64,000 bases of DNA from assembly GCA_947624985.1 (NCBI GenBank), contig CANQMO010000014.1, positions 17,857 through 81,856 of the forward strand. Reading direction: 5' to 3'. Position numbers and translations under genes: made by a program. This stretch comes from an uncultured Oscillospiraceae bacterium. GTDB lineage: Bacteria; Bacillota; Clostridia; Oscillospirales; Oscillospiraceae. Each line of letters starts with the position of its first letter. Within the stretch, counting starts at the first letter, position 1. Below, piece after piece: positions 12,743-38,300 of this stretch. The notes under the pieces were generated by a model. The model made no database searches. It was not told the DNA's origin and saw only the letters and a program-made list of their open reading frames with translations.

Positions 12743-13198
12743 TTAAATAAGATCGTGCGGATCTGCTCCCAATGCGTCTGCTATGGCGATAAGGTTTTTT
12801 GCGGTTAGATTCGCTGCTGTTGATGTGCCGGATTCGACCCGCTGGATCTGCCTTATGTTCACGCCGGATTTTTCGGCCAACTGGCGCTGCGTCATACCCG
12901 ACATCCCGCGGAAAAACACCAATGATCCGGCGGTAGGAGTACGCTTGTATATATCAGCGTCTCCCATTTTCTCCGCGTCGCGGATTGGCATCCATCCCCA
13001 ATTTATGGCCTTGATACCCGGCTTTAGCATTTTAGTGATTTTCTCCTTGCCGCGCTCCATAGCCTCCTGCCAAGTGCTGGCCTCAATAATGGCCTTAACT
13101 CGTCCAACGTATACCTGTGCGCCTTTAACACCGATCTCAGCGTCCTCGCTTTTGGTCGCCGCCCGGTCTAGCTCAGCAGTGATGTAATACTTATCCAT
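12743..13198 (-). CDS. XRE-family regulator of a two-gene cassette (cassette A)
   Basis: C-terminal HTH MTQRQLAEKSGVNIRQIQRVESGTSTAANLTAKNLIAIADALGADPHDLI. Confidence 0.8.
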   Translation of the reverse strand: MDKYYITAELDRAATKSEDAEIGVKGAQVYVGRVKAIIEASTWQEAMERGKEKITKMLKPGIKAINWGWMPIRDAEKMGDADIYKRTPTAGSLVFFRGMSGMTQRQLAEKSGVNIRQIQRVESGTSTAANLTAKNLIAIADALGADPHDLI

Positions 13199-13210
13199 TT
13201 TAAGCCCTCC

Positions 13211-13534
13211 TTAAAACGTGGTACGGCCTTGGGAGATAGCCGCAACCGCCTTGCGGATATAATCGCCATCAAACACAAAACGTTTATCAATTACCAGCGC
13301 GGCGCTCCCGCTAGGCATTGCCCCAAGCTGCGCGAAAGTGTTGTTAATCAGGTCGTCGCGGTACGCTTTGACGCCCTCGTGAGTGTACTCGGGGAAAACC
13401 TTCCCGCCATCCGGATAACGACGCTCCACGTCATTGTCAATTATCTCTAATTGTTTAAGCGCACCAGTCAGTATGTCGGAGGCCCACTTGATCTGTTTAT
13501 CGGTACCTTTGAGCTCGGGGATTTTGTACTCCAT
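13211..13534 (-). CDS. Upstream partner in cassette A, hypothetical
   Basis: 107 aa, promoter with palindromic operator upstream. Confidence 0.65.
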   Translation of the reverse strand: MEYKIPELKGTDKQIKWASDILTGALKQLEIIDNDVERRYPDGGKVFPEYTHEGVKAYRDDLINNTFAQLGAMPSGSAALVIDKRFVFDGDYIRKAVAAISQGRTTF

Positions 13535-13575
13535 CTTATTTACCTCCTGGGCGTTGCCCTTTATCTTATAGTCCT

Positions 13576-13605
13576 ATTATACGCTAATATTAGCGTATTG
13601 TCAAC
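13576..13605 (-). promoter_or_regulatory. Cassette A promoter with palindrome ACGCTAATATTAGCGT in the spacer
   Basis: Reverse strand TTGACA-ATACGCTAATATTAGCG-TATAAT. Confidence 0.85.
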
Positions 13606-13795
13606 AGCTTTTTGAGGTTTTTCTAATTTTTTTGACGTGAAAAAGGCTGAGGCGAGGGGCCGGCGCGGCCCGGCCCTTTGTCTGAACCTTTTTCAACAGC
13701 ACAGGGGATACATATTTAAATATCACGCGCACGCGCGCGTGTTTTTATCCGGCTTGATAACGGCGGGATTTATGACCACGGAGAGGGTGTGAGCG

Positions 13796-14752
13796 ATGGT
13801 TCGGGTAGAGTGGCGGATACGGGAATGGCAAATGCGCAACGGCGTATGCGAGAAAGTCAAGTTTGCTGTGACGCTGGACGGCGCTGTCCGCACGGGGACG
13901 CGCTCATACATGAGGGCGGTGGACCGGGCGGAGAAAAACAGACGGGAGGCGGCACGGGAGATGGCGAGGATCCTCAATGACAACTTCGAGGCCGGCTCAG
14001 ACGTGCATTTGCTCCTGACCTATGACGAGGCGTCGGTCCGGAAACTGGTTCGTCGGGTAGGTGTGCCGGAGCAAGATATCGAGCGCTTTCTGTTCTCTGT
14101 CCGTAGCGAGGGGGAGACCCGGGAGCAGGAGGACAACCGGCTGCTGCTCTACATGGCGGCGGAGCAGGAGTTCAGAAACTGGACGAAGCGCTGCCGGCGG
14201 GCATGCGGGAAGGCCGGCGTGCAGCTGAAGTATGCGGGGATCACCAGCGACCGAGAGCGGGACAAGCGCACCGGGACGACGGGACCGGCCCGGCTGCACC
14301 ATCATGTCGTCGTGAACCGGGAGACAGCAGAGCTATGCGCTCGGGCCTGGCGCGGTGGTGCGGCAGACAAAAAAGTCCTATACGGGCCCCATGGGGACCT
14401 GTCCGAACTGGCTGAGTACATGATCGACCAGGTGCGTACCATCCCGGGGATGAAGCGTTACCACCCGTCCCGGACGCTGACCCAACCGGAGCCAATCGAC
14501 AGACCGGCGCAGAATCCGGACGCGCCGCTGCGGGTGCCGGAAGGCTGCGAATTTATCTGGCGGTCAGAGAGCAGGCCCGGGCGGCCACAGGTGATCCGGT
14601 ATTACCGTCCGCCGGAGAAGCGCCGGCGGCAGCGGAAAAAGCGAAAAGGAGGCAAGGGCCATGGCGGAGACATACGGGGAACTGATATGCCGGCTGTGCC
14701 GGCTCCGGGACGAGATGAACAAGACCCCGGAGGGCCGGGCGGCTCTGCATGA
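13796..14752 (+). CDS. HUH-type rolling-circle replication-associated protein (putative)
   Basis: DVHLLLTYDE, ARLHHHVVVN (His-rich HUH-like motif), LSELAEYMIDQ (candidate Tyr). Confidence 0.65.
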   Translation: MVRVEWRIREWQMRNGVCEKVKFAVTLDGAVRTGTRSYMRAVDRAEKNRREAAREMARILNDNFEAGSDVHLLLTYDEASVRKLVRRVGVPEQDIERFLFSVRSEGETREQEDNRLLLYMAAEQEFRNWTKRCRRACGKAGVQLKYAGITSDRERDKRTGTTGPARLHHHVVVNRETAELCARAWRGGAADKKVLYGPHGDLSELAEYMIDQVRTIPGMKRYHPSRTLTQPEPIDRPAQNPDAPLRVPEGCEFIWRSESRPGRPQVIRYYRPPEKRRRQRKKRKGGKGHGGDIRGTDMPAVPAPGRDEQDPGGPGGSA

Positions 14753-14840
14753 GGTCAAAAAGACGCTGCGGGTCATGCGGCGGCGCGGCGTGTCCTACGC
14801 AAAGGCTGCAATGCTGCGGAAAAATAGCGGGGGGGGGTAA
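14661..14840 (+). CDS. Small hypothetical protein overlapping the end of the Rep-like gene
   Basis: 59 aa MAETYGELICRLCRLRDEMNKTPEGRAALHEVKKTL...; ends in a G9-TAA tract. Confidence 0.5.
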   Translation: MAETYGELICRLCRLRDEMNKTPEGRAALHEVKKTLRVMRRRGVSYAKAAMLRKNSGGG

Positions 14841-14843
14841 GCG

Positions 14844-15254
14844 ATGAGTACAGACAGGTATGGATGGATGGGGTTTGTGCGCTGGATGGTGCGGGCGTTC
14901 CCGGCGAGAGCGCAGGCGCTGGGGGACCTGCACGCCATGAAAATGACGGCCCGGTATTCCATGGAGCCAGGGGGCGGCGGCCCGGAACGGACTACGGAGG
15001 CGGTGGCCATTCGCCAGTTGCCTGAGGACGAGCAAAAAGAATATGACGCGGTGCGTACCGCGCTGGAACGGATGGCGGCAAGATCTGACGCCAAGGACAG
15101 GCTGCGCCTGATCCGCATGGTGTATTGGGACCGTTCCTGCGGCCTGTATGCGGCAGCGAGGAAAGTCGGGATATCGGAGGCGACAGCAAAGCGGTGGAAC
15201 GGCTCATTTTTGCGTGATGTGGGGTGGAATTATGGGTGGCACCCTGAAAAATGA
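14844..15254 (+). CDS. ArpU/RinA-like late transcription regulator (putative)
   Basis: Sigma region 4-like C-terminus ARKVGISEATAKRWNGSFLRDVGW; position just before terminase. Confidence 0.55.
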   Translation: MSTDRYGWMGFVRWMVRAFPARAQALGDLHAMKMTARYSMEPGGGGPERTTEAVAIRQLPEDEQKEYDAVRTALERMAARSDAKDRLRLIRMVYWDRSCGLYAAARKVGISEATAKRWNGSFLRDVGWNYGWHPEK

Positions 15255-15362
15255 GCCCTCACGGCCAAAAAAGTGTGTTATAATGGCAGCATGGAATAGA
15301 GCGAGAGCCCCGACGGAGACCATCTGCCGGGGCTTTGCTATGCCCGGAAGGAGGCGGGGGCC

Positions 15363-15827
15363 ATGGCGACGGGCAAGTATGAGCGGTGGCTCACGCCGGA
15401 GGGGCTGGGCGAGATCGAGGCGTGGGCCCGGGACGGGCTCACTGACGAGCAACTGGCCCGGAAGATGGGCATAAGCAGAGAGACGCTGCGGGTCTGGGCG
15501 AAAAAGTATCCTGGCATTTCTGGCAGCGTCACGCGCGGGCGCGGCGGCGCGCGCGAACAGATTGAAAATGCAGTCTACAAGCGGGCACTGGGCTACACCG
15601 TGGAGGTGAAGGAGCCAATGAAGGTGCGCCGGCGGTTTTTTAATCCAACGACCGGGAAGATGGAGGAGCAGGAGGAGGTCGTCCAGGGGGTCCGAGAGGT
15701 ACATATCCCGCCGGACACGCGGGCGGCTCAGATGTGGCTGACCAACCGGGAGCGGGACCGGTGGGCGGAACACCCGACGCCCATCGACGGCCAGCGTGAG
15801 GCGGTCACGGTGGAGGTGGACTTGTGA
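15363..15827 (+). CDS. terS: Terminase small subunit
   Basis: HTH GLTDEQLARKMGISRETLRVWAKKYP, directly upstream of terL. Confidence 0.8.
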   Translation: MATGKYERWLTPEGLGEIEAWARDGLTDEQLARKMGISRETLRVWAKKYPGISGSVTRGRGGAREQIENAVYKRALGYTVEVKEPMKVRRRFFNPTTGKMEEQEEVVQGVREVHIPPDTRAAQMWLTNRERDRWAEHPTPIDGQREAVTVEVDL

Positions 15828-17059
15828 GGGTCCGGTTGTCCGAACATATGGGCCCGGCATTTTACGATCTGGCCCGGGACGTGTTCCGGCACGGGCACAC
15901 ATACTACGACCTGAGCGGGGGCCGGGGCAGTCTGAAAAGCTCCACGGTGAGCCTGCTGGTGCCGCTGCTGCTGATAACCCATCCGGGCACCCATGCGCTG
16001 GTGCTGCGCAAGGTGGCAAACACCATGCGGGACAGCGTGTTTGCCCAGTATAGCTGGGCGGTGGCGGAGCTTGGGATGGCGGACTATTGGACGGCTCGGG
16101 TGTCGCCCATGGAACTGGTCTACCGCCCCACCGGACAGAAGATCATGTTCCGGGGCGCCGACGACCCCATGAAGATCAAGTCCATCAAGGCCCCGTTCGG
16201 CTACATCGCCGTGACCCATTTCGAGGAAAAGGACCAGTTCGCCGGTCGGGAGGAGATCCGGAACATACTTCAGTCAACCATGCGCGGCGGGGACGTGTTC
16301 TGGAACTTCGAGAGCTACAACCCGCCCATCAGCCGGGACAACTGGGCAAACCTGGACACGGCCAAACCCATGCCGGACCGCCTGGTCCACAAGAGCAGCT
16401 ATCTGGACGCGCCGGCCCAGTGGCTGGGAGAGGAGTTCCTGGCGGCGGCGGATCACCTGAAGGCGGCAGACCCCCGGGCCTATGAGCATGAGTACCTGGG
16501 CGTGGCCACCGGCACCGGGGCCAATGTCTTTGAGAAGGTGGAGGTCCGGCGGATCACCGACGAGGAGATAGAGCGTCAGGACCGGATATTCCAGGGGGTG
16601 GACTGGGGGTGGTTCCCGGATCAGTTCGCTTTCCTGCGGACCGGGTATGAGGCCGCCCAGGAGAAGATATGGCTGCTGGATGAGCTTTATGGCAACAAGC
16701 TGAGCAACCAGGCGACGGCCAAGTGGATCAAGGACCACGGCTACACGGACTATGTGATAGCCTGCGACAGCGCGGAGCCCAAAAGCGTTGATGATTACCG
16801 TGGCGCCGGGCTGCCGGCCCGGGGCGCGATCAAGGGGCCCGGAAGCGTGGATTATGGCTTCAAGTGGCTCCAGACACGGACGCTGGTGATCGACCCGGAG
16901 CGGACACCGGCGGCGTACCGGGAGATCATGCACTACGAATATGAGCGGGACCGGGCCGGGAACATCATCAGCGGGTACCCGGACAAGGATGATCACGCTA
17001 TATCGGCTCTGCGCTATGCGTATGAGTCGCTTTTCAACAGGAGAGGTACGACGGCATGA
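15824..17059 (+). CDS. terL: Terminase large subunit (PBSX family)
   Basis: GGRGSLKSSTVSLLV Walker A, nuclease-domain motifs (VDWGWFPDQFAFL; VIACDSAEPKSVDDYR). Confidence 0.95.
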   Translation: MRVRLSEHMGPAFYDLARDVFRHGHTYYDLSGGRGSLKSSTVSLLVPLLLITHPGTHALVLRKVANTMRDSVFAQYSWAVAELGMADYWTARVSPMELVYRPTGQKIMFRGADDPMKIKSIKAPFGYIAVTHFEEKDQFAGREEIRNILQSTMRGGDVFWNFESYNPPISRDNWANLDTAKPMPDRLVHKSSYLDAPAQWLGEEFLAAADHLKAADPRAYEHEYLGVATGTGANVFEKVEVRRITDEEIERQDRIFQGVDWGWFPDQFAFLRTGYEAAQEKIWLLDELYGNKLSNQATAKWIKDHGYTDYVIACDSAEPKSVDDYRGAGLPARGAIKGPGSVDYGFKWLQTRTLVIDPERTPAAYREIMHYEYERDRAGNIISGYPDKDDHAISALRYAYESLFNRRGTTA

Positions 17060-17406
17060 ACGTGACGGTGAATGTGCTGGGAACAGAATACGACGTCAAG
17101 GAGGTCACGCAGGATCTGCTGCCCGATGGGGCGGACGGATATTGCGACTTGTCGGAGCACGTCTGTGCGGTCGATGGCTATGCGGAGGACAAGGCAAAAA
17201 CACCGGCCCAACGGCTGAAAGAATCGATCTTGTCGGATCTGGATGTGCAGATCAAAAAGAATAAGCGGCATGAGATCGTCCACGCGTTTCTGAACGAGAG
17301 TGGGCTGTGGGAAAACAGCTGGGCGAGAAATGAAGAAATGGTGGACTGGATCGCCATCCAGGGGCCGAAGATATACCGGGCCTGGGAGGCTGCCGGCGCG
17401 CTGTGA
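17056..17406 (+). CDS. Hypothetical phage protein
   Basis: ATGA overlap with terL. Confidence 0.55.
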   Translation: MNVTVNVLGTEYDVKEVTQDLLPDGADGYCDLSEHVCAVDGYAEDKAKTPAQRLKESILSDLDVQIKKNKRHEIVHAFLNESGLWENSWARNEEMVDWIAIQGPKIYRAWEAAGAL

Positions 17407-17441
17407 CGGCTGGGTGATAAAAAACGAAAGGAGACGAGGAT

Positions 17442-17825
17442 ATGGGAGGCAGAGGAGCGTCTAGTGGTGGCGGTGATGGCGTTTTCCCGTCGAAAAAAGA
17501 AAGAACAATAGAGACCATATATAGAGAACAGCGCGGTTTTCAGAAGTCGTACTACAAGGACGAGGTGCTTGAAGCCAGAAGTGACGGCAAAGGGAATGTA
17601 ACATTTAGTTATGCAACTGGCGGGCAGTATGAAAAAACGGCCAAAACGAATAGGACAAACTATGTGACGTTCAAGCTGCGCGCAGGGGCTATAAATGGCG
17701 AGACCTTTAATGTAAATTGGTCAAAAGTAAAGTCGATATCTGGGCATACATACAGTCTCCGCGATGAAGCGAAGGCTGCGGGGCTGAAGTGGGACGGCGA
17801 AACAAAAAAATGGATCAGAAAATGA
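17442..17825 (+). CDS. Hypothetical MGGRGASSGGG-type phage protein
   Basis: 127 aa with strong RBS. Confidence 0.55.
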   Translation: MGGRGASSGGGDGVFPSKKERTIETIYREQRGFQKSYYKDEVLEARSDGKGNVTFSYATGGQYEKTAKTNRTNYVTFKLRAGAINGETFNVNWSKVKSISGHTYSLRDEAKAAGLKWDGETKKWIRK

Positions 17826-17835
17826 CATCTTTATT

Positions 17836-18507
17836 ATGATAAACTTTGAAAATCTGGACAAATGCATATTTCCGGGCGTGGGGAAGTACGGAATACCACA
17901 ACTGGAACCTGTCAATGAATATCCAGAGGGCGAGTTCATCCCTGTCAATTACCACTATACGGCCAAAGACCGCGCAGAAAAGATAATCCATTTTTTTGTT
18001 GATGATACGCTGTTCATCCGCCAGTGGAATCAGCCAGATAAGTACATACCCGCGTTGAAGCAATTCGAGGCTATATGCGCTCCTGACTTCTCAACATACA
18101 CCGATATGCCGCTGGCAATGCAGATATACAACCATTACCGTAAGCATTGGCTGGCGGCGTACTGGCAAATGCAGGGAATGACAGTATATCCGACAATATC
18201 ATGGAGTACGCCTGACAGTTACGATTGGTGTTTTGATGGTGAGCCTGTCGGCGGCATTGTGGCAATATCAAGCGTCGGGGTCGCAAGGGATAAAGAGGCA
18301 AAGCGGTTGTTCCTGCAAGGCTATGACGAGATGATGAAACGGCTTGACCCGTCATGGGTGATATTCTACGGGACTGTTTTTGAAGAATGTGACTGGAACG
18401 TAATACGAGTCAAACCTTTCGGCGCAGCCTTTACACAGCGTGGAAAAGAGGCGGCGCTAAAGAGGGAAGCCGAAATGTATTATGACAGTATACTCTGTCG
18501 GGATTGA
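17836..18507 (+). CDS. DUF4417-like protein (candidate cargo gene)
   Basis: MQGMTVYPTISWSTPDSYDWCFDGEPVGGIVAISSVGV pattern. Confidence 0.6.
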   Translation: MINFENLDKCIFPGVGKYGIPQLEPVNEYPEGEFIPVNYHYTAKDRAEKIIHFFVDDTLFIRQWNQPDKYIPALKQFEAICAPDFSTYTDMPLAMQIYNHYRKHWLAAYWQMQGMTVYPTISWSTPDSYDWCFDGEPVGGIVAISSVGVARDKEAKRLFLQGYDEMMKRLDPSWVIFYGTVFEECDWNVIRVKPFGAAFTQRGKEAALKREAEMYYDSILCRD

Positions 18508-18511
18508 TGAT

Positions 18512-19915
18512 ATGGGACTGTTTGCAAGGATCAAGGGGTGGATCGACATGCACCTGAGGACCAGGGCGAAAGAGGTATACGGCATACGGGCGGCAACCTC
18601 CGTGGATATGGATAAGTTCGTTGACCGCTGCGCGGAAGTCTACCGGGGAAACCCGTACTGGCTGGACAGCGAGCATGGCATCCGGACGGTTAATTTTGCG
18701 AAGTCGGTCTGCTCGGAGACGGCGCGGCTGACCATGATGGGCACAAAGATCACCATCGGCGGCGAGAGCCAGCGTGCGGCGTGGCTACAGGAGCAGGTCG
18801 ACCAGATGTGGCCGAGGCTGCGGGAGTGGGTAGAAAAGGGCTGCGCCCTGGGCACCGTGATCCTGCGGCCCTGCGGCGACGGGGTGGAGTGCCTGGAGCC
18901 GGACCAGTTCGTCGTCACAGATACCAGCGGAGAGATCATCACCGGCGTTGTGTTCATCAGCCGCGAGTATGAGGAGCCGGAGCGGTACTTCACCAAACTG
19001 GAGTATCACCACTTCCTCCCGGACGGGGCCTATGCCATCTCCAACCGCTGTTTTCTGGGCCACTCTGAGCGGGACGACGGTAAGCCGGTGCCAATCGAGG
19101 CGACGCCGTGGGCGGATCTGGCCGAGGACGTGACCGTGGAGAATCTGACCGGGCCCCTGTTTGGGGTGCTGCGCATGCCGGGCGCCAACAACAAGAGCAA
19201 GAGCGCCGTGATGGGCATGCCGGTGTTCGCCGACGCGCTGGAGGAACTGCGGGACCTGGACGTGGCGTACAGCCGCATGACCACCGAGATATATGACAGC
19301 CGCCGGCTCGCCATGATCGACGACAGGCTGCTCCAACAGGCGGGGACGAAGGTGGGCGCGGCGGAAAAGGTGGAACTGCCGGACTATGTGCGCAAGGTGA
19401 GCGGCGTGGGCCCGGAGGAGTATTATCAGGAGATCAACCCGGCGCTGAACACGTCGGACCGGCTGGTGGGGCTCAACGCCATATTGAATCAGATCGGATT
19501 CAAGTGCGGCTTTTCCAACGGCGCGTTCGTTTTCAACGAGAAGCGGGGCGTGGCCACGGCGACCCAGGTAGAGAGCGAGGATCAGCGGACCATCCAGTTG
19601 ATCAAGGACGTGCGGGACAAGCTGGAGGCGGCCATGGACGCGCTGCTGTATGCCCTCAATGTTTTTGCCGATCTCTACGACCTGGCCCCTGCGGGCGTCT
19701 GGGAGGTAAATTATGATTTTGGCGACATCACCTATAACCGGGAGGAGGACCGGGCCCGGTGGCTGTCCTATGTGATACAGGGCGTGGTACCGCCGTGGAC
19801 GCTGCTGGCCAAGTTCGAGGGCATGAGCGAGGAGGAAGCCCGGGCCATGGTGGACGAGGCTGCGGGCGCTGCCCAGACGCCGCCGCCGGGGACCGGATTT
19901 GGGAATGATGTGTAA
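18512..19915 (+). CDS. Phage portal protein (SPP1 gp6-like)
   Basis: Size, order after terL, GLNAILNQIGFKCGFSNGAFVFNEKRGVATATQVESEDQRT. Confidence 0.9.
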   Translation: MGLFARIKGWIDMHLRTRAKEVYGIRAATSVDMDKFVDRCAEVYRGNPYWLDSEHGIRTVNFAKSVCSETARLTMMGTKITIGGESQRAAWLQEQVDQMWPRLREWVEKGCALGTVILRPCGDGVECLEPDQFVVTDTSGEIITGVVFISREYEEPERYFTKLEYHHFLPDGAYAISNRCFLGHSERDDGKPVPIEATPWADLAEDVTVENLTGPLFGVLRMPGANNKSKSAVMGMPVFADALEELRDLDVAYSRMTTEIYDSRRLAMIDDRLLQQAGTKVGAAEKVELPDYVRKVSGVGPEEYYQEINPALNTSDRLVGLNAILNQIGFKCGFSNGAFVFNEKRGVATATQVESEDQRTIQLIKDVRDKLEAAMDALLYALNVFADLYDLAPAGVWEVNYDFGDITYNREEDRARWLSYVIQGVVPPWTLLAKFEGMSEEEARAMVDEAAGAAQTPPPGTGFGNDV

Positions 19916-19917
19916 CA

Positions 19918-21162
19918 ATGCTGACGCCTGAGTACAAACGGCGCGTTGCGGAGGGAAGCGAGATGATCGCGTCCCTTTTGCATGAGGAGATCATCAAGAT
20001 CATCGTCGAGGCCATTGTGACCAGGATGGAGCGGGGCGTTGATTACCGGCTGACGGCCCGGGACAGGTGGCTGCTGGAGACGTTGCAGACCGCCGGGTAT
20101 CTCCGGGCGGATCTGGAGCGGGAGATCGCCGCCAAGACAAAGCTCATGCTCAGCGAGATACAGGACGCCTTCCAGGACGCCGCTGTGCGGAACATGGCCT
20201 GGGATGACGCGGTGTACAAGGCCGCCGGCCTGGAGCCGCCGCCCATGCGCCAGTCTCCTTACCTGCTGCGGCTGGTGCAGCGGGGCTACGAAAAGACCGC
20301 GGGGGAGTGGGTCAACTTCACCGGGACCCTGGCGGACACGACGCAGCAGGTGTTTATTAGGGAGTGCGACAAGGCGTACAACCTGGTGGCGTCGGGGGCC
20401 ATGGGGCAGGATCAGGCGGTGCGCCAGGCGGTGGATACCGTGGCCAGCGAGGGCGTGGTGGTGAAGTACACCCGCCAGCGGCCCGACGGGACCCGGTACG
20501 TCTACCACACGGATACCATCGAGACGGCCACGGCCCGGGCGGTGCGGACCGGCGTGGGACAGGCATGCGGGGAGATGACCCTGGCCCGGATGGAGGAGAT
20601 GGACTGGGACATCGTGCTGGTCACCGCCCACCTGGGGGCCCGGACCGGCGACGGCGGGGAGAATTTTACCAATCACTTCTGGCTGCAAGGTAAATTCTAC
20701 AGCCGGGACGGGTCCGACAAGCGCTTCCCGCCGCTGAGCGTGTGCGGGATCGGGGACGTGCAGGGCCTACTGGGGGCCAATTGCCGGCACAGCATAGGCC
20801 CGGGGGACGGACGGTTCATCCCCGACGAGCTTAAGATCGACAGCGAGGAAAACCAGCTCCGGGAGGAGCAGGAACAGAAACAGCGGAAGCTGGAGCGGAC
20901 CATCCGCAAGACCAAGCGGGAGGTCCAGGGCCTGAAAACGGCCATGGACGCGGCGGAGGACCCGGCGGACAAGGCGGCCTTGAAGGCCCGGTACCAACAG
21001 CAGGCCCTGAAGCTCCGGGAGCAGAACCGGGCATATCAGGATTACTGCGACGAGACCGGGCTCAAGACCCAGAGCGAGCGGCTGCATATCGCCGGCTGGG
21101 ACCGGAAACAGGCGGCAGCAGCCTCCGGCGCGGCCCGCACCGCGGCGAAAGTGATGAGCTGA
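19918..21162 (+). CDS. Minor capsid / head morphogenesis protein
   Basis: Follows portal; LVTAHLGARTGDGGENFTNHFWLQGKFYSRDG...CRHSIGP. Confidence 0.85.
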   Translation: MLTPEYKRRVAEGSEMIASLLHEEIIKIIVEAIVTRMERGVDYRLTARDRWLLETLQTAGYLRADLEREIAAKTKLMLSEIQDAFQDAAVRNMAWDDAVYKAAGLEPPPMRQSPYLLRLVQRGYEKTAGEWVNFTGTLADTTQQVFIRECDKAYNLVASGAMGQDQAVRQAVDTVASEGVVVKYTRQRPDGTRYVYHTDTIETATARAVRTGVGQACGEMTLARMEEMDWDIVLVTAHLGARTGDGGENFTNHFWLQGKFYSRDGSDKRFPPLSVCGIGDVQGLLGANCRHSIGPGDGRFIPDELKIDSEENQLREEQEQKQRKLERTIRKTKREVQGLKTAMDAAEDPADKAALKARYQQQALKLREQNRAYQDYCDETGLKTQSERLHIAGWDRKQAAAASGAARTAAKVMS

Positions 21163-21936: not shown

Positions 21937-21951
21937 GGAGGATTTTTTATC

Positions 21952-29837: not shown

Positions 29838-29861
29838 CAGGTGTGACAGGAGCGTGGACCT

Positions 29862-30260: not shown

Positions 30261-32814
30261 ATTTAAGCGGCTGATGAAGACCCGCACGGACTTCAAGGCC
30301 CACGCCGAGGTAACGCTGGCTAATGGCGAAAAGCTGGCCCTCGGCGACGATGAGCTTTTGATGAGCGGTCACACGCTTACGGACGGCGCGGGGGCCTCCG
30401 GACTGCCTCTGGGCGCCGCTGTCTGCCGCACGGTGCAAATTAAGATAAACAACCGGGATGGCCGCATGGACGGCTATGACTTCTTCGGCGCCCGTATTCG
30501 GTTCTGGCTCACCTACCGGCTGTCAGAGACGGTGGAGCGTGTCGAGCTTGGCATGTTCACGGTGACAGAACCGGAAAGCTGGGGCGAGACGGTCACCATC
30601 ACTGCCGGGGACGACATGACCCGGGCGGACAGGACATTCGCGCCAGGCCGGGATACGGACCTGACGCTGGGGGAGCTCTTCCGGGCGGTCTGCGATCAGT
30701 GCGGGATAAGCTACACAACGGCGGTGTTTCGCAATTCGGACCTCCGGGTCACAGTGCCGGCAGATGAGTACACATGCCGCCAGCTGCTGGGATACATCGC
30801 CATGCTGGCCGGCGGGAATGCACGGATAGACCGCCTGGGGCACATCGAGATACTGAGCTATGACAAGGCCGGAGAGCCCGATCACGATCTGACGGACTGG
30901 AGCAGCCTCACCACGGACACGGACGATATCTATGTGACCGGACTGGAGGCGGAGACAGAGAGCGGGACGGTCCTGGAGGGGACTGAGGGGTATGTCCTGC
31001 AAGTGGACAACCCGTTGATGGAGGGGCGCGAGGCCGAGGCGCTGGCCCGGATGGGTGACGTGCTGCTGGGAATGACGCTCCGCAAATTCGATGGGTCCCA
31101 TGTGGGGTATCCGCTGGCGGAGTGCATGGATACGGTGCGGTTGACAGACCGGCGCGGCAGAAAGTACACGTCCGTCATTACGGACGTGACATATACATTC
31201 GGGGCGCTCACGGAGATCTCCAACAGCGCGGAGGGCGTTGTGCGAAACGGGAGCCGGTATGTGTCCGGGGAGACCCGGGCGAAGATCGCCGCCCGGAAGC
31301 TGGTGGAGCAGGAGCGGACCAGACGCGAACAGGCCGTGAAGGATCTGAAAGACACGCTGGACCGCTCATCCGGCATGTACACGACTGAGGTAAAACTGCC
31401 GGACGGGTCGAAGATATCATATGTCCACGACAAACCGACGCTGGCGGAATCCGGGATCGTGACGAAATACACGGTGGAGGCTGTGGGCTTTTCGACCGAC
31501 GGGGGCAAAACATACCCATACGGCGTGACGGTCAACGGAAAGGTGATCATGGGGATCATCCAGGCGGAGGGGGTCAACGCCGACTGGATCAACACCGGAA
31601 CGCTGAACGCCTCTCGCCTGGGCGCCGGGACTATAACGGCGGACAAGCTGAGCATTAAAGACCTTTCGGCGCTGAGCGCGACGATCGGAGGATGGACCAT
31701 CGCCGGCAGCGCCATCTACAACGGTTTGCCGTATACGGGGCAGAAAAGCTCCAATGCTACTGGGATAGGCGACTATGGCGGCGGATGGGCTTTTTGGGCA
31801 GGAGACGGCCGGTTTTGGGTAAAACAATCCGGTGAGTTTTTCGCTGAGAGTGGGACCGTGGCCGGATGGAGGCTTGGGACCGGCTGGCTGACAGGCACGG
31901 ACCCGGCGTCTGGTCGGATCACGGCCATGCAAAGCCCGTCCGCAAACGTTAAATGGGTCTTTGCCGCCGGCGGAACAGATCCCAACGACTACAGCGCCTT
32001 TCCGTTTCGTGTGGACAAGGAGGGCAACCTCTACGCGGCCAGCGCAAGTATAAGCGGGACCATAAGCGCCGGTGGTACATACTGGGGCGGGCTATCCAGC
32101 GCGACGGGGTCCGTATCAAGCCTGAGCGGGTCGCTGTCCGGCGCGAATTTGCTGTCATGCGGGACCTATGGCACGTCGTTTACCGTTGCGGGCGGTGGAT
32201 CGATCACGAATTATTCCGGAGGCACCACATATGGTAGCAGCGGTTTAGCAGTTATCAGGTCAGGGAATGCACTGCATGTTTTCAACGGAAGTCATTTGGG
32301 GGTGCCTGGAGCGCTTAGTTGTGACGGGGATTTCTCGTGCAACGGGGTTAAACACCGTGCGATCAGCACAGTGCATTATGGCAGGAGAGCCCTATCCGCG
32401 TACGAGACGCCTCTGCCAACGTTTGCCGACTATGGCATGGCCGAACTGGACGAAAACGGCGCGTGCTACATCACAATTGATCCCATATTTGCCGAAACGG
32501 TAGACGAAGCGTATCTGCCGACGGTGTTTTTGACCAAATACGGTCAGGGAGATATCTGGGTGGAGACCGTCGAGCACGATACCGTCACGGTCAGAGGGAC
32601 AGCGGGACTGCGGTTCTCCTGGGAGACACGTTTTTTCCAGACTAACGCAGACGTGGAGCGCCTATCTGTTTTGGGCTACGACTATAGGGACGAAAGCATG
32701 GAGCAGGATTTCGAGGGCGACGCCGCTGTCGCATATGAGCATAGCGCGGAGAATGTGGATTACGCCCATGCGGGGTATGAATACTTCACAGATTTTGAAA
32801 GGAGCCAAAAATGA
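30241..32814 (+). CDS. Tail-associated/receptor-interacting protein
   Basis: 857 aa; N-terminal hub-like region, C-terminal Gly/Ser-rich beta segments. Confidence 0.75.
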   Translation: MIQVSDEFKRLMKTRTDFKAHAEVTLANGEKLALGDDELLMSGHTLTDGAGASGLPLGAAVCRTVQIKINNRDGRMDGYDFFGARIRFWLTYRLSETVERVELGMFTVTEPESWGETVTITAGDDMTRADRTFAPGRDTDLTLGELFRAVCDQCGISYTTAVFRNSDLRVTVPADEYTCRQLLGYIAMLAGGNARIDRLGHIEILSYDKAGEPDHDLTDWSSLTTDTDDIYVTGLEAETESGTVLEGTEGYVLQVDNPLMEGREAEALARMGDVLLGMTLRKFDGSHVGYPLAECMDTVRLTDRRGRKYTSVITDVTYTFGALTEISNSAEGVVRNGSRYVSGETRAKIAARKLVEQERTRREQAVKDLKDTLDRSSGMYTTEVKLPDGSKISYVHDKPTLAESGIVTKYTVEAVGFSTDGGKTYPYGVTVNGKVIMGIIQAEGVNADWINTGTLNASRLGAGTITADKLSIKDLSALSATIGGWTIAGSAIYNGLPYTGQKSSNATGIGDYGGGWAFWAGDGRFWVKQSGEFFAESGTVAGWRLGTGWLTGTDPASGRITAMQSPSANVKWVFAAGGTDPNDYSAFPFRVDKEGNLYAASASISGTISAGGTYWGGLSSATGSVSSLSGSLSGANLLSCGTYGTSFTVAGGGSITNYSGGTTYGSSGLAVIRSGNALHVFNGSHLGVPGALSCDGDFSCNGVKHRAISTVHYGRRALSAYETPLPTFADYGMAELDENGACYITIDPIFAETVDEAYLPTVFLTKYGQGDIWVETVEHDTVTVRGTAGLRFSWETRFFQTNADVERLSVLGYDYRDESMEQDFEGDAAVAYEHSAENVDYAHAGYEYFTDFERSQK

Positions 32815-33083
32815 GGAGGGAAAAACTGACTAGCGCCACGCTGCACAACACACAACAGGGGCCGTACATATCATATACCTATTCGGTCGAGGATACATCG
32901 ACCGGAGAGACGCTGCAATCAAATATACGAGACGGGCTTCGTCTGATCGACGGTATTGCGGATATGGATGAGGCGAAAAAACACTTTGACGCCATTTTTG
33001 ATTTTATCAAAGCAAAGCGGAGAGAAAAGAGAGCGGCTGAGCTTGAGGCGCTCAAAGATATGATGGGGGAGGTCGAACAGTGA
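32811..33083 (+). CDS. Hypothetical tail-region protein
   Basis: ATGA overlap. Confidence 0.55.
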   Translation: MRREKLTSATLHNTQQGPYISYTYSVEDTSTGETLQSNIRDGLRLIDGIADMDEAKKHFDAIFDFIKAKRREKRAAELEALKDMMGEVEQ

Positions 33084-33274
33084 ACAAGATCCAAGAAGAA
33101 ATAGATCAGGCTTTTGGCCTGATCAGCAATATCGCGGTGTCCGGCCCCGCCGTTGACGTGATGTTCTCGGCAAAACAGCACTTGCGGCAGGCGTCAGATC
33201 TGGTGAGTGCTTTGAACGAGAAAAAGGACAGCGCTGGGCCGGGGAAAACCGGCGAGGGAGGCCCGACGAAATGA
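33080..33274 (+). CDS. Hypothetical tail-region protein
   Basis: Overlap with previous gene. Confidence 0.5.
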   Translation: MNKIQEEIDQAFGLISNIAVSGPAVDVMFSAKQHLRQASDLVSALNEKKDSAGPGKTGEGGPTK

Positions 33275-33308
33275 CTGGGCGGGTCCGGCAGGTAGGGGGT
33301 GAGAGCGA

Positions 33309-34643
33309 ATGGCTATAGCACGGCAAAAAATTACACTGGACGTCTACAAAGAAGAATACTACAAGTACGTCAACGCAAAGCAGGATGATAATATCAGCCG
33401 GCTGCTCATAATAACGCTCACCGCGAACGATGAACGCCTAAAGCTTGACAGCGATCAGGAGCAGGCGTATTTCCGGGCGGTCAAACCGGATGGATATGAC
33501 ATCATAAACCCGGCCACTATCAACAAGGACGGGGATATCGAGGTGGCGCTGACAGATCAGGTGCTGGCTTGCCCGGGTAAAGTGGAGGCCGACGTTGCTG
33601 TATCAGACGGGGAAAATGTCTTGGCGTCTGCCACGTTTTTTATCCAGGTCGAGCCGATCCCCAGGAGCGGGAAAAGCATTGTCAGTACCAATGAGTTTCT
33701 CGTTTTGGTCGAGGCCACGGAGCGGGCGGAGGCGGCGGCGCGGGCAGCAAATAAGGCCAAGGAGGACGCGGACGCCGCGGAGACGCTCCGGCAGCAGGCC
33801 GAGGACCTCCGGCAGCAGGCCGAAGAAACCCGCGAACAGATGGCCAATGAAATAGCGGAGGCGGAGAACAGCCGGGAAAGTGCCGAAACGGCCCGGGCCG
33901 ACGCGGAACGTCTGCGGACTGAGGCGGAGGATCACCGCGCCACAGCCGAAGTAGCCCGCCAGCAGGCCGAGGACGAGAGAGCCGAGACGTTTGCCGCGGC
34001 GGTCGAATCCGTCAACAACGCAGTTTCTGACGCCGCAGAGGCGACCCAAAAAGCCGAGGAAGCGGCGGGGGAAGCTGACGCCTCAGCCGGGCGAGCAAAT
34101 GCGGCGAGCGAAGCTGCTGAGGGGGCAGCCCAAAAGGCGCTCGCCGCGGCCGAATTGCCGTACCATCCGCCGCAGGTAATGGACGGCGAACACTACTGGT
34201 CATTTTGGGACGCGGCCCGTGGCGAGTATGTGCAGAGCGATTTGCCCGCAGGTGTGTGGATCACCGGCGTTCGGGCGGTCACCGGCGAGCCGGGGACTGA
34301 GGCGTCCGTGGTCAACGAGGGCACGGCCATGGAGCAACAGCTGGTGTTTACCATCCCCCGGGGTCAGGACGCCGACATCAAGACCTGGGCCGTGTCGGTA
34401 CCGGCGGAAGGGTGGACGCCGGGCGAGGACACCTATGGCACCATCACAGGCCGGTTTTGTGCCCAGGTGCCGCTGGACGGCCTCAGCGAGGACCCAAAGG
34501 ACCTGCGTATCGAGTACGCCGGCGGGGACATGACGGCGTACTGCACCATGGATTACTGGCGGTCCGCCGCCGGCGAGCTGACGCTTTGGGCGGTCACGGC
34601 GCCGGGCGCAGACTTTGAGATCAAGATCGTGGAGGTGATGTGA
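33309..34643 (+). CDS. BppU-type upper baseplate protein with long coiled coil
   Basis: DUF2479-like N-terminus (MAIARQKITLDVYKEEYYKYVNAKQDDN) and heptad-rich QQAEDLRQQAEETREQ. Confidence 0.8.
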   Translation: MAIARQKITLDVYKEEYYKYVNAKQDDNISRLLIITLTANDERLKLDSDQEQAYFRAVKPDGYDIINPATINKDGDIEVALTDQVLACPGKVEADVAVSDGENVLASATFFIQVEPIPRSGKSIVSTNEFLVLVEATERAEAAARAANKAKEDADAAETLRQQAEDLRQQAEETREQMANEIAEAENSRESAETARADAERLRTEAEDHRATAEVARQQAEDERAETFAAAVESVNNAVSDAAEATQKAEEAAGEADASAGRANAASEAAEGAAQKALAAAELPYHPPQVMDGEHYWSFWDAARGEYVQSDLPAGVWITGVRAVTGEPGTEASVVNEGTAMEQQLVFTIPRGQDADIKTWAVSVPAEGWTPGEDTYGTITGRFCAQVPLDGLSEDPKDLRIEYAGGDMTAYCTMDYWRSAAGELTLWAVTAPGADFEIKIVEVM

Positions 34644-34644
34644 T

Positions 34645-35091
34645 ATGGGCTCTGGATTGCTCAAGCGGCCCCGGACACCGGCGGACCTGGCTGCTATCTA
34701 TTTGGCCGCCCACCCCGTCGGATCGCTCTATGTGTCCTTTGACAAGACCAGCCCCGCCGAACTGTACGGCGGGGCGTGGGAGCAGATCAAGGACCGGTTT
34801 TTGCTGGCGGCGGGCGACGCCTACAACGCCGACAGCACCGGCGGCGCGGCCAGCGTCACCAGCGGCGGTACGGCGATAAGTGTAGCGCAAATGCCTGCGC
34901 ATAGTCATGGGGTAGATGGTATCCAATGGCCAGGCCCAGGGGACCAGCCCGGCTGGACCGGCTGGGGAGAAGGCCCAAATGTCCGCACGACAACTACCTC
35001 AAAAATTACCGGTGGCGGACAGCCTCACACCCACACGGTGGCCACCATGCCGCCGTACATCGTCGCCTACGTCTGGCGGCGGGTGGGCTAA
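34645..35091 (+). CDS. Tail collar-type receptor binding protein, copy 1
   Basis: HPVGSLYVSFDKTSPAELYGGAWEQIKDRFLLAAG ... MPPYIVAYVWRRVG. Confidence 0.8.
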   Translation: MGSGLLKRPRTPADLAAIYLAAHPVGSLYVSFDKTSPAELYGGAWEQIKDRFLLAAGDAYNADSTGGAASVTSGGTAISVAQMPAHSHGVDGIQWPGPGDQPGWTGWGEGPNVRTTTTSKITGGGQPHTHTVATMPPYIVAYVWRRVG

Positions 35092-35115
35092 AACAAAAAA
35101 AGAAGGGAGCAAGTC

Positions 35116-35571
35116 ATGGAAACTACGACGATCGTTGACCAGCAGGGCAACCCCTTGGACAATTACGACCCCGATCTGGGGTACCTGGAGACCCATACCG
35201 AGATCATCCACCACCCGGCCGACGAGGCCGTGGCAGAAGTCTCACATTATGTGCCGGTGCAGGAGTTCCCCGCCACCGGCGGACGAATCGTCCAGAAGGT
35301 CATAGACGTGCCGGGCGTGGAGGCCCAGGAGGCGTGGGATGAGCCTGTCACCACGCAGGTATACATACCCTACACCGCGGCGGAGCTCGCGGCCCGGGAC
35401 CGCGCGCGGCGTATCGCCGAGCTCAAACGGTCATTGTCCGAAACGGACTACACGGTCATCAAGATCGCAGAGGGCTCGGCCACGGCAGAGGAGTACGCGG
35501 CGGTGATCGAGCAGCGGCGCGCCTGGCGGGCGGAGATCAACCGCCTGGAGGCCGAGGGGCAGGAGGTATGA
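35116..35571 (+). CDS. Hypothetical tail-region protein
   Basis: 151 aa with RBS. Confidence 0.6.
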   Translation: METTTIVDQQGNPLDNYDPDLGYLETHTEIIHHPADEAVAEVSHYVPVQEFPATGGRIVQKVIDVPGVEAQEAWDEPVTTQVYIPYTAAELAARDRARRIAELKRSLSETDYTVIKIAEGSATAEEYAAVIEQRRAWRAEINRLEAEGQEV

Positions 35572-35636
35572 CCATGGTCGATAGGTTCAAGCTCCCCACC
35601 GGGGGGGGGTAATTCCCGGGGCCGCGGAGGTGTGGC

Positions 35637-36110
35637 ATGAGCGCCGGCGTGAATCAGCTTGCGGCGCTGCGCCGGGAGATACTGCTGGCGGCCCATCCTG
35701 TCGGGACGATATACACGTCTGACAGCCCCACCAGCCCCGCCGAGCTGTTCGGCGGGACCTGGGAGCGGCTGGAGGGCCGGTTTGTACTGGGGGCCAGTGC
35801 GGCACACCCTGCTGGCAGCACCGGCGGCGAAGAGGCCGTGGCGCTCAAAGCGCCAAACATCGCTCCGCACCAGCACGGCCCGGGTACGCTATATGTCACC
35901 TACTTTGGCGAATACCTTGGAGACGCCATCGCCGCGCAGCACTCACCGTTTAGAGGGTACACATTAAATCTTGATAGTGGCGTGCAAACCAATCTGACCC
36001 GGCATGCAATGCTGTCTGGCCTGACAGATTCAGGCCAAGGCATCACCGGCGCGGCCCATAACAACATGCCGCCCTATTACGCCGCCTACGTCTGGCGGCG
36101 CCTGGAATAG
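35637..36110 (+). CDS. Tail collar-type receptor binding protein, copy 2 (paralogue)
   Basis: HPVGTIYTSDSPTSPAELFGGTWERLEGRFVLGAS ... MPPYYAAYVWRRLE. Confidence 0.8.
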   Translation: MSAGVNQLAALRREILLAAHPVGTIYTSDSPTSPAELFGGTWERLEGRFVLGASAAHPAGSTGGEEAVALKAPNIAPHQHGPGTLYVTYFGEYLGDAIAAQHSPFRGYTLNLDSGVQTNLTRHAMLSGLTDSGQGITGAAHNNMPPYYAAYVWRRLE

Positions 36111-36161
36111 AGCGGAGACACACAAAAACAAAATAAAATTTATGCAAAGGAGCGTAAAAAA

Positions 36162-36614
36162 ATGAATAACACAGTCAAGATGGTGGTGGCCGCTATTTTT
36201 GCGGCCACCGGCGCGTATTTCCGGGAGCTGCTGGGGCCGATCCTGGTCCTGGTGGCAGTCATGCTGCTGGACTACATATCCGGCATGGCCCGGGCGTGGG
36301 CAGAGAAGGACCTGTCCTCCCGCATGGGCGTGCTGGGGATAGTCAAAAAGCTGCTGTACCTGGTGGCGGTGGCGGTGGCCGTCGTGGTGGACTGGGTCAT
36401 CCAGACGGCGGCGGCCAAGGCCGGTATCAATGCCGTGGGCGTACACTTCGTGGGGCTTCTGGTGGCGATTTGGCTCATTCTCAACGAGTGTATCAGCATA
36501 TTGGAGAACGTATCCGCCCTGGGCGTGCCGATCCCCGCATTTTTGCAGACAATCATCGAGCGGCTGAGACAGACCACAGAGACCGAGGCGGAGGAGGGAG
36601 GCAGCCATGAGTAA
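36162..36614 (+). CDS. Phage holin
   Basis: Multi-TM small protein VVAVMLLDYISGMARAW directly before endolysin. Confidence 0.85.
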   Translation: MNNTVKMVVAAIFAATGAYFRELLGPILVLVAVMLLDYISGMARAWAEKDLSSRMGVLGIVKKLLYLVAVAVAVVVDWVIQTAAAKAGINAVGVHFVGLLVAIWLILNECISILENVSALGVPIPAFLQTIIERLRQTTETEAEEGGSHE

Positions 36615-37434
36615 CGCAGCGCAGGTAGTGTCCATCGCCCTGGCGGAGGTGGGCTACAAAGAGAAGGCCACCAACGCCAGCCTTGACCTGGCCACCGCCA
36701 ACGCTGGCAGCGGCAACTGGACCAAATACGCCCGGGACCTGTACGCCGCCGGGTACTACAACGGCAACAAAAACGGCTACGCCTGGTGCGACGTGTTCGT
36801 GGACTGGTGCTTCTTCAAGGCCTTCGGCAAGACAGAGGGACAGCTGGTGGAGTGCCAGACCGGGACGCTGGGTGCCGCGTGCCCGTACAGCGCCGGGTAC
36901 TACAAGGCCCTGGGTCGGTACGACCGGAGCCCCCGGGTGGGGGACCAGGTGTTTTTCCAGCAGGGCGGTGAACTGGTCCACACCGGTATCGTGGTGGGCG
37001 TCAGCGGCAGCACTATCACCTGCGTGGAGGGCAACGCCTCCGACATGGTGAAGCAGACCAGCTACAGCCTCTCCAACGGCTATGTGGCTGGGTTCGGCCA
37101 TCCCCGGTATGACGATGAGAGCGGGGCGGTCACGCCGGCGCCCGCCCCGTCCCCTGAGCCCGCCCCGGTGGCTACGATCGTGACGATCCAGCTACCGGTG
37201 CTGCGCGAGGGCATGACGAGCATGGCGGCGATCAAGTCCATCCAGCGTATCTGCTACGCCCGGGGCTGTCTGGACAACGCCGGCCGGCAGATCAAGGTGG
37301 ACGGCAATTTCGGCCCCGCCACGAAGCAGGCGGTGATCAAGCTGCAGAGGCAGCTTTGGCCGAACACTTCCTCCAAGTGGGACGGCGTGGTGGGCGCCGA
37401 GACCTGGGCCTCCGCCATGAACCAGCTTTGGTAA
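36607..37434 (+). CDS. Endolysin (CHAP-like amidase + peptidoglycan-binding domain)
   Basis: YAWCDVFVDWCF ... HTGIVVGV; C-terminal VDGNFGPATKQAVIKLQRQL. Confidence 0.88.
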   Translation: MSNAAQVVSIALAEVGYKEKATNASLDLATANAGSGNWTKYARDLYAAGYYNGNKNGYAWCDVFVDWCFFKAFGKTEGQLVECQTGTLGAACPYSAGYYKALGRYDRSPRVGDQVFFQQGGELVHTGIVVGVSGSTITCVEGNASDMVKQTSYSLSNGYVAGFGHPRYDDESGAVTPAPAPSPEPAPVATIVTIQLPVLREGMTSMAAIKSIQRICYARGCLDNAGRQIKVDGNFGPATKQAVIKLQRQLWPNTSSKWDGVVGAETWASAMNQLW

Positions 37435-37673
37435 GGCGTCTGCTGGCGGTGCTGCTGGCGCTGGCCATGCTGGCGCTCTGCGGGACCGCCATGGTCCGGG
37501 ACCGCCGGCAGCCCGCCGGAGAGATCTCTTGGGAGGACATGGACCCTGCGCAACTGTCCTGGGTGATCGAGGGCATACAAGAGCGCATATCCGCCCTCCA
37601 GGACGATCTGGCCCGGGCCAAAACGCTGCAGGCCGATAAGCTGGCAGTGGCCCGCCCGCCCCCTGAAAAATAG
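37428..37673 (+). CDS. Small membrane protein after endolysin (spanin-like position)
   Basis: LVRRLLAVLLALAMLALCGTAM TM + coiled coil; TTG start inferred. Confidence 0.5.
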   Translation: MVRRLLAVLLALAMLALCGTAMVRDRRQPAGEISWEDMDPAQLSWVIEGIQERISALQDDLARAKTLQADKLAVARPPPEK

Positions 37674-37678
37674 TTTTG

Positions 37679-37717
37679 CCCCAGTCTGTGCAATGTGTAC
37701 AGGCTGGGGCCTCTTTT
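37679..37717 (+). terminator. Late operon terminator
   Basis: GCCCCAGTCTGTG...TACAGGCTGGGGC + T-rich. Confidence 0.8.
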
Positions 37718-37733
37718 TTTGTACGATATTATA

Positions 37734-37783
37734 GGCTAATATTAGCATTTTATCTTGACAAGAGGCTAATATTAGCCTATAAT
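37734..37783 (+). promoter_or_regulatory. Cassette B promoter with two GGCTAATATTAGC operators
   Basis: TTGACA-AGAGGCTAATATTAGCC-TATAAT (37755-37783), additional copy at 37734-37746. Confidence 0.85.
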
Positions 37784-37824
37784 ACAACCATAAGATAACC
37801 GGAACGGCCCAGGAGGTAAATACA

Positions 37825-38019
37825 GTGAGCAACTTGAGCAAGGCTTTCATCGAGCGCGTGAAAAAAGAGTACATCGTCGACACCCGGAAATATCGCTATA
37901 CTACAAAAGAGTGCTACGACGCGACCCATCAATGGCTGGAAATTCGGCGGCTGCCGATCTCTGCTCTGGACACGACCGCCGCGATCGACGGCTGGGAGAC
38001 GGTGGAGGTCATAGAGTAA
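37825..38019 (+). CDS. Upstream partner in cassette B, hypothetical
   Basis: 64 aa MSNLSKAFIERVKKEYIVD. Confidence 0.6.
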   Translation: MSNLSKAFIERVKKEYIVDTRKYRYTTKECYDATHQWLEIRRLPISALDTTAAIDGWETVEVIE

Positions 38020-38300
38020 TGAGGCGCAAATATGCTGATTGCCAGCGAACGGACGGGGATTGCTCCGTCTGCTCGCTGGTCAACTACGGGCGGGACTGTC
38101 ATAATAACGCGATCACAAAACTGGAGTGGTGCCGCCGGGCTGCGGGTATGTCCCAGACGGACCTGGCGGAGGCTGCGGGCGTCAATGTGCGCCAGATACG
38201 CCGAGTAGAGATGGGGGAGAGTGCTGCCGGCAACCTGACGGCCAGCAACCTTCTGGCCATCGCCGACGCGCTGGGCGTGGATCCCCGCGACCTGGTGTGA
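38019..38300 (+). CDS. XRE-family regulator of cassette B
   Basis: MSQTDLAEAAGVNVRQIRRVEMGESAAGNLTASNLLAIADALGVDPRDLV, close to cassette A HTH. Confidence 0.8.
   Translation: MRRKYADCQRTDGDCSVCSLVNYGRDCHNNAITKLEWCRRAAGMSQTDLAEAAGVNVRQIRRVEMGESAAGNLTASNLLAIADALGVDPRDLV

Follow-up and report, generated by a model that had tools for sequence, protein, structure and literature searches.

The window, which is the whole stretch of 64,000 nucleotides analyzed here, contains a prophage integrated at tRNA-Gln. Two cassettes, A and B, are both located inside this prophage, each with a small first gene followed by a gene for an XRE protein, and cassette A adjoins the terminase genes. The features of the prophage and the cassettes are as follows.

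2523 to 2550, plus strand: left att repeat, 3' end of tRNA-Gln
4683 to 5324: gene for a CI-like repressor with a peptidase-type C-terminus, adjoining the integrase
12743 to 13198, minus strand: P0001, XRE protein of cassette A, 151 aa, C-terminal HTH_3; predicted Aca-like autorepressor
13211 to 13534, minus strand: P0002, first gene of cassette A, 107 aa, near-orphan; candidate anti-defence protein
13537 to 13575, minus strand: leader A, AGGAGG at 13548-13543; belongs to a 68-nt repeat with leader B
13576 to 13604, minus strand: core promoter A, TTGACA at 13604-13599, 17-bp spacer, TATAAT at 13581-13576
13583 to 13594: operator A, perfect palindrome GCTAATATTAGC, within the promoter spacer
37735 to 37746: second operator of cassette B (IR2-like), upstream of promoter B, an arrangement like that in phage Cormatin
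37755 to 37783, plus strand: core promoter B, TTGACA at 37755-37760, 17-bp spacer, TATAAT at 37778-37783
37765 to 37776: operator B, GCTAATATTAGC, within the promoter spacer
37784 to 37824, plus strand: leader B, AGGAGG at 37811-37816
37825 to 38019, plus strand: P0003, first gene of cassette B, 64 aa, GTG start
38019 to 38300, plus strand: P0004, XRE protein of cassette B, 93 aa, four-Cys N-terminus and HTH_3
38302 to 38847, plus strand: zinc-ribbon gene, directly 3' of cassette B
38915 to 38942, plus strand: right att repeat

Direct reading of the DNA confirmed that both cassettes have a consensus TTGACA-N17-TATAAT promoter with the palindrome at the centre of the spacer, as an earlier sequence-only reading had claimed. 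The leaders had also been described as alike, and the segments 13537-13604 and 37755-37822, which span promoter, operator and leader, indeed form an inverted repeat of 68 nt with 84% identity. The second operator reported for cassette B is present, although its start is at 37735 rather than at 37734. The exact sequence GCTAATATTAGC occurs at three sites only in the 2.28-Mb genome, all of them at promoters A and B, and the reversed control pattern gave no copies in the same genome, so that the shared palindrome exceeds what chance would give. The reported similarity of the HTH regions holds at 63–68% identity (63% over 59 aa, E=2e-24, in a single comparison). The upstream partners, said to look different, are unrelated proteins (P0002 and P0003), and P0001 and P0004 likewise have unrelated N-termini. 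The operator is common to both cassettes and the recognition helices are near-identical, which makes the cross-repression proposed earlier plausible: each XRE protein probably controls the promoter of the other cassette as well as its own, and A and B would then form one regulon.

The 68-nt repeat could be taken to mean that one cassette arose from the other by duplication inside the prophage, followed by divergence into twin modules, as the sequence-only reading had supposed. Comparisons of the proteins and promoters speak against this origin. The HTH of A is closer to those of L078 (82%) and L032 (80%) than to that of B (68%), the full-length XRE protein of A is 61% identical to that of L180 and that of B 77% identical to that of L125, and promoter A is as similar to the promoter of L078 (85%) as to promoter B (84%). 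As each cassette has closer relatives elsewhere, and neither the partners nor the XRE N-termini resemble each other, the two are not local duplicates, and we consider a duplication in situ very improbable. A role of the XRE proteins as a CI/Cro-type lysis-lysogeny switch or as immunity regulators is the least probable of the alternatives. Among solved structures, those of 434 Cro and of the controller protein C.AhdI come nearest to the HTH, which would fit such a role, but the prophage has a separate CI-like gene at 4683-5324. Nor does the prophage show a divergent early-promoter control region common with the lysogeny module, the operators being confined to the two cassette promoters. With no further exact operators in the window or the genome, the XRE proteins appear to regulate their own operons only.

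The N-terminus of P0001 forms an alpha/beta domain of its own, upstream of the C-terminal HTH; the structure of P0001 was predicted with a pLDDT of 73, and believable PDB matches were obtained for the HTH alone. The AlphaFold2 model of P0002 had a mean pLDDT of 53, which is too low for interpretation. No relatives of P0002 were found among viral contigs or in 300 other genomes of the family, a single weak phage match was obtained, and a GT-KQ-KWAS segment is common to P0002 and the partner protein of L189. Homologues of P0003 are present in L122, which is a cassette of like kind, and in L225 and L226. The four-Cys N-terminus of P0004 is invariant across 6 homologues. The zinc-ribbon gene was considered as a fixed partner of the cassette and rejected, because phages without the cassette carry homologues too.

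Approximately 18 homologous cassettes were identified in Oscillospiraceae-type prophages, in phage contigs and in one inovirus. All have a TTGAC[A/T]-N17-TA-box promoter with a candidate operator in the same register, and the palindrome stands above shuffled sequences in 16 of 18 cassettes, being degenerate in those of genomes G207 and G395. The sequence-only reading had named a lack of operator conservation next to homologous XRE genes as the observation that would count against it; in other phages the operator is conserved. Helix and operator also match, in that the RQIQR helix (with VE or LE) goes with the operator GC[T/C]AATATTAGC, whereas other helices go mostly with other palindromes. 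The first genes of the cassettes are small and mostly unrelated to each other, and the XRE N-termini are likewise variable. In the inovirus, the XRE gene lies directly behind the same promoter and there is no partner gene. Phage Cormatin has a second palindrome upstream of the promoter, as in cassette B. The partner proteins of Cormatin and L181 have an N-terminal module that resembles NCBIfam AcrIIA3_fam (E=4e-5 and E=1.1e-10, respectively, both under the curated cutoff of the model), and those in G207 and G395 are very acidic. Relatives of P0002 and P0003 are also present in phages outside such cassettes.

A search of genome contigs with a loose operator pattern gave mostly chance matches in AT-rich genomes; in Oscillospiraceae, the matches with a full promoter had an XRE gene behind them. 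Further cassette genomes were sought in two genera and none was found. A conserved leader hairpin before the Shine-Dalgarno sequence was rejected as a shared element: most leaders contain GGG...CCC, and RNAalifold gave 2 pairs with no compensatory changes.

The host genome encodes a complete type I-C CRISPR system with seven cas genes, all of full length, and 14 spacers. Two of the 14 spacers match the prophage at 33/34 positions next to a TTC PAM, each with one mismatch in the seed.

8612 to 8645, minus strand: protospacer of host type I-C spacer 1, 33/34, PAM TTC, mismatch at position 8
33872 to 33905, minus strand: protospacer of host type I-C spacer 7, 33/34 PAM-proximal bases, PAM TTC, mismatch at position 5

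Because each of these protospacers carries one seed mismatch, escape mutation could explain the survival of this host without an inhibitor. Perfect matches were observed in other cassette genomes. G207, in which the homologous cassette is located beside terminase genes, has at least four perfect TTC-PAM spacers against that prophage, and G395 has two against its cassette-bearing contig. Strong self-targeting is absent from G339, which has a cassette, and G195 has seven self-targeting spacers and no cassette. Perfect self-matches were found in 2 of 4 cassette genomes, as compared to off-array perfect matches in 1 of 12 cassette-free type I-C genomes (p=0.14), a control from which G066, G113, G153 and G201 were left out; with one mismatch included, the counts were 3/4 and 1/12 (p=0.03). 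The samples behind these comparisons are small. Cas1 was present in four of the five clear cassette genomes and type I-C Cas1 in 39 of 151 genomes of the family (Fisher p~0.02). Self-targeting shows that the CRISPR system is inhibited or inactivated by something, but the responsible gene need not sit in the cassette.

The best explanation of these observations, to which we assign a probability of about one half, is that the XRE proteins of A and B are Aca-like autorepressors of anti-defence cargo in operons built like acr-aca operons, and that the two form one regulon. The regulatory part of this reading is well supported. The operon layout, together with host spacers against such prophages, suggests that the cassettes encode proteins that block bacterial immunity, and from this we infer an anti-CRISPR function. 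The near-consensus strong promoter would fire on phage entry into a naive cell and give an early burst of the small upstream protein or proteins and of the XRE protein. A dimer of the latter would then bind the palindrome between the -35 and -10 elements and block RNA polymerase, so that expression of the cassette would be kept low in the lysogen. The putative cargo comprises the small proteins P0002 and P0003, and the variable N-terminal domains of the XRE proteins may belong to it as well; its most likely function is to counter host defence, and type I-C CRISPR is the leading candidate target. Comparison of P0002 and P0003 with known Acr proteins gave no match. The proposal of the sequence-only reading that the cassettes hold lysogeny-maintained cargo was about right, anti-defence being the more specific reading.

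A possible but doubtful alternative is that the cassettes are generic autoregulated accessory operons of phages, with a cargo that is expressed in an early burst and kept quiet in the lysogen but serves purposes other than anti-defence, for example takeover proteins, superinfection exclusion or replication modulators. Such operons are predicted to have the same regulatory anatomy, and the very diverse, unannotated partners and the P0002 and P0003 relatives outside cassettes are consistent with them. The spacers that self-target cassette-bearing prophages, the AcrIIA3-like modules in two cassettes and the high acidity of the G207 and G395 partners point instead to anti-defence. We consider it improbable that the cassettes are toxin-antitoxin systems of the HigBA, MqsRA or HipBA kind, in which the small first gene would be a toxin and the XRE protein an antitoxin and autorepressor, stabilizing the prophage. 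The toxin-first order, the coupled or closely spaced genes and the autorepressor HTH are those of type II systems, and the four-Cys N-terminus of P0004 recalls MqsA. The HTH alone weakly matches HipB/Y4mF and MqsA-type antitoxin models, but all scores are under the curated cutoffs, and no toxin family was matched by the partners in Pfam, NCBIfam, PHROGs or PADLOC. Moreover, near-identical HTHs occur with unrelated partners, which argues against a conserved cognate pair, and the inovirus version has no partner at all. The TA-like character suggested earlier is therefore disfavoured.

The reading of the cassettes as acr-aca-like operons was compared with known systems. As in the acr-aca operons of Aca1-10 and AcrIIA1 (PMC9410906), the cassettes are phage-borne and have small variable genes first, with the HTH autorepressor gene directly behind them in one operon on a mobile element. 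They have an inverted repeat in a near-consensus core promoter that is conserved in homologues (degenerate in 2/18). According to PMC9410906, an inverted repeat lies within the core promoter in every Aca family examined there, and in some it is accompanied by another, similar repeat outside the core; cassette A corresponds to the first layout, with one repeat, and cassette B and Cormatin to the second, with both. The fusion of some of the regulators to extra domains is comparable to Acr-Aca fusions (PMC8934645). Unlike in acr-aca operons, the cargo of the window cassettes is candidate Acr only, and the cassette HTH has no close match among solved Aca chains in the PDB sequence set. The likeness to AcrIIA3 (NCBIfam NF033948) is confined to the first half of the model, which is matched under the curated cutoff by the N-terminal module of the Cormatin and L181 partners and is absent from the window cassettes; moreover, the name of the model refers to an inhibitor of type II-A systems, whereas the CRISPR systems here are of type I-C. 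Restriction-modification C proteins such as C.AhdI, the nearest solved structures, are also small XRE proteins with predicted control of their own promoter, but restriction and methylation genes are absent from the cassettes and the partners have no convincing match to families of that kind.

More tentatively, the cassettes may represent an Aca-type family, undescribed as far as we found, that occurs in Oscillospiraceae-type gut phages and an inovirus and controls swappable, undescribed type I-C anti-CRISPRs; the prophage studied here would then have two operons with one operator, and a single feedback loop that limits both cargoes. The list of named type I-C inhibitors in PMC7913775 is short, and most of its entries are confined to one genus. 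If this proposal is true, operators of the GC[T/C]AATATTAGC type between TTGACA and TATAAT could serve as bait in the search for anti-defence genes, both in Clostridia of the gut and in the phages of these bacteria. P0002 would then be a direct candidate for a type I-C inhibitor, as would the partner proteins of G207 and G395. Cassettes A and B would also provide a testable case of a shared autorepressor over two anti-defence operons.

The cassette of the Flavonifractor phage Cormatin (ON453905, 24057-25384), which is an induced prophage of F. plautii (PMC10197239), differs from the arrangement in the window in being single and in having an AcrIIA3-like first gene. It resembles cassette B in its two-operator promoter and cassette A in the N-terminal domain of its XRE protein, and a homologue of the zinc-ribbon gene that follows cassette B is located 3' of the Cormatin cassette as well.

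The two cassettes of the window have the anatomy described by the sequence-only reading, with features located as follows.

12743-13198, minus strand: XRE gene of cassette A (P0001, 151 aa)
13211-13534, minus strand: small gene of cassette A (P0002, 107 aa)
37735-37746: second palindrome of cassette B
37825-38019, plus strand: small gene of cassette B (P0003, 64 aa)
38019-38300, plus strand: XRE gene of cassette B (P0004, 93 aa)

Both follow the order TTGACA, 17-bp spacer, TATAAT, leader ending in AGGAGG, small gene and XRE gene, with the perfect palindrome GCTAATATTAGC at the centre of the promoter spacer. A whole-genome pattern search identified exact copies of the palindrome only at these two promoters and at the second site of cassette B in the 2.28-Mb genome. 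Promoter and leader together make up a 68-nt inverted repeat between A and B (84%), and the HTH regions of the XRE proteins are 63% identical. Sequence comparison revealed no relatedness between the XRE N-termini, nor between the upstream proteins, which had been noted as different, and a "twin" origin by local duplication was not borne out.

Cassettes A and B are located inside a prophage, which is followed by further phage genes.

2523-2550 and 38915-38942: att direct repeat at the tRNA-Gln 3' end (28 nt, 100%), prophage borders
2733-3845: prophage integrase
4683-5324: CI-like repressor of the prophage
13796-14752: replication initiator of the prophage
39039-40313: second-element integrase
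41866-43335: second-element primase/helicase
44990-48577: second-element tape-measure gene
56117-56144: third att-like copy (86%), end of the second element

The prophage also encodes terminase, portal, capsid, tape measure and endolysin. Cassette A, encoded on the minus strand, is flanked by the replication genes on one side and the terminase region on the other, and cassette B adjoins the right att site, behind the lysis genes. Direct repeats of AAAATGCTAACTA close to both att sites (2655-2706 and 38819-38858) are possibly integrase arm-type sites. The third att-like copy and the second integrase mark a second element integrated in tandem (38943-56144, about 17 kb), which looks like a reduced prophage. 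A 24-nt tandem repeat of about 8 copies (61013-61276) is within a coding region outside the prophages.

BLAST identified the cassette also in Flavonifractor phage Cormatin, gut phage MT835513 and an inovirus, and pattern and profile scans revealed further cassettes in Oscillospiraceae MAGs and viral contigs. Cormatin is one of those F. plautii prophages for which induction has been reported (PMC10197239). Matches at E<=1e-9 were found in 9 of 401 family genomes, and two strong copies only in the genome of the window. All of the approximately 18 promoters compared share TTGAC[A/T]-N17-TA-box with a candidate operator in the same place; the palindrome scored above shuffles in 16 of 18 and is degenerate in genomes G207 and G395. 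The helix RQIQRVE or RQIQRLE is paired with GC[T/C]AATATTAGC in cassette A and eight other cassettes, and cassette B has the helix RQIRRVE and the same operator. Different palindromes accompany RLVQK, RLIQN, RQIQKYE and other helices, and RQIQKIE in locus L188 accompanies GCCAATATTAGC. This correspondence of operator and helix, the best evidence short of experiment, suggests that each XRE protein binds its own promoter. The regulatory reading is strong: we put at roughly 0.85 the probability that the XRE protein is an autorepressor acting on the operator in the promoter spacer, common to A and B. In a filamentous phage (inovirus) from mouse (PQ006173, locus L121, 1425-1950), the same promoter and operator directly precede the XRE gene, which encodes a long C-terminal extension and has no upstream partner.

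The layout of A and B equals that of acr-aca operons, in which the core promoter always holds one inverted repeat, a second is sometimes located outside, and the HTH gene lies behind small genes (PMC9410906). Aca-like domains fused to other domains are known (PMC8934645). Based on this layout and these fusions, we propose that an early burst of cassette expression would be followed by autorepression by the XRE protein, and that A and B would cross-repress each other. The cargo had been proposed to be TA-like or lysogeny-maintained; our judgement goes against the former part only, as we consider toxin-antitoxin modules unlikely. An anti-defence cargo, probably directed against type I-C CRISPR, is supported by the observations below to about the point of even odds.

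In the host, the type I-C operon is complete (Cas3, Cas5c, Cas8c, Cas7c, Cas4, Cas1, Cas2), and two of the 14 spacers in the array match the prophage at 33/34 bases with PAM TTC.

8612-8645: protospacer of spacer 1, mismatch at PAM-proximal position 8
33872-33905: protospacer of spacer 7, mismatch at PAM-proximal position 5

These single mismatches could be escape mutations, and the host's own case is therefore no proof of an inhibitor by itself. Spacers sp8 and sp12 (host genome G000, contig C21, 18258-19152; loci L207 and L220) match the prophage weakly, at 6464-6496 (24/33, PAM TTC) and 10886-10920 (26/35, PAM GTC), each above 20 shuffles, and may be old ones directed against phages related to this one. 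G207 is assembled as one contig and is 99% complete; its cassette-bearing prophage is matched perfectly by at least four spacers with TTC PAMs, and a fifth matches it with TCA. The protospacers are 3-10 kb away from the cassette, within or close to the genes for terminase, portal and capsid. G395 has about six spacers, two of which are perfect matches to the contig carrying the cassette, again with TTC, and no such matches were found in the cassette genome G339. As controls, up to 12 leader-proximal spacers were tested in each of 12 cassette-free type I-C genomes, and only G195 showed perfect off-array matches. Perfect self-targeting was observed in 2/4 cassette genomes versus 1/12 controls (p=0.14), or 3/4 versus 1/12 when one-mismatch matches were also counted for the cassette genomes (p=0.03), p-values that are descriptive given the small numbers, post hoc criterion and unequal spacer sets. 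Of 5 clear cassette genomes, 4 were found to have Cas1, as compared to type I-C Cas1 in 39 of 151 family genomes. The seven perfect off-array matches in G195 fall on one contig (C27; L289, L290), on the first 40 kb of which no homologous XRE was found; this contig may hold a further inhibitor locus, unless the CRISPR system is inactive.

Across cassettes, promoter, operator, leader and HTH are constant, and the variable parts are the XRE N-terminus and the gene(s) upstream. P0004-type proteins share four invariant cysteines, and a P0003 homologue is present in the L122 cassette. P0002 has a GT-KQ-KWAS segment in common with the L189 partner, which displays an AcrIIA3-like motif by eye and gave no score with the NCBIfam AcrIIA3_fam model. 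The L181 and Cormatin partners match the N-terminal half of that model (E=1.1e-10 and 4e-5), with neither reaching the curated cutoff of 70 bits. Very acidic proteins are found among the G207 and G395 partners (pI 4.2 and 4.1). On G395 contig C59, near 30180-29820 (L237), the product of the first cassette gene is a very acidic protein of 120 aa (pI 4.05) that looks ParB-like by eye.
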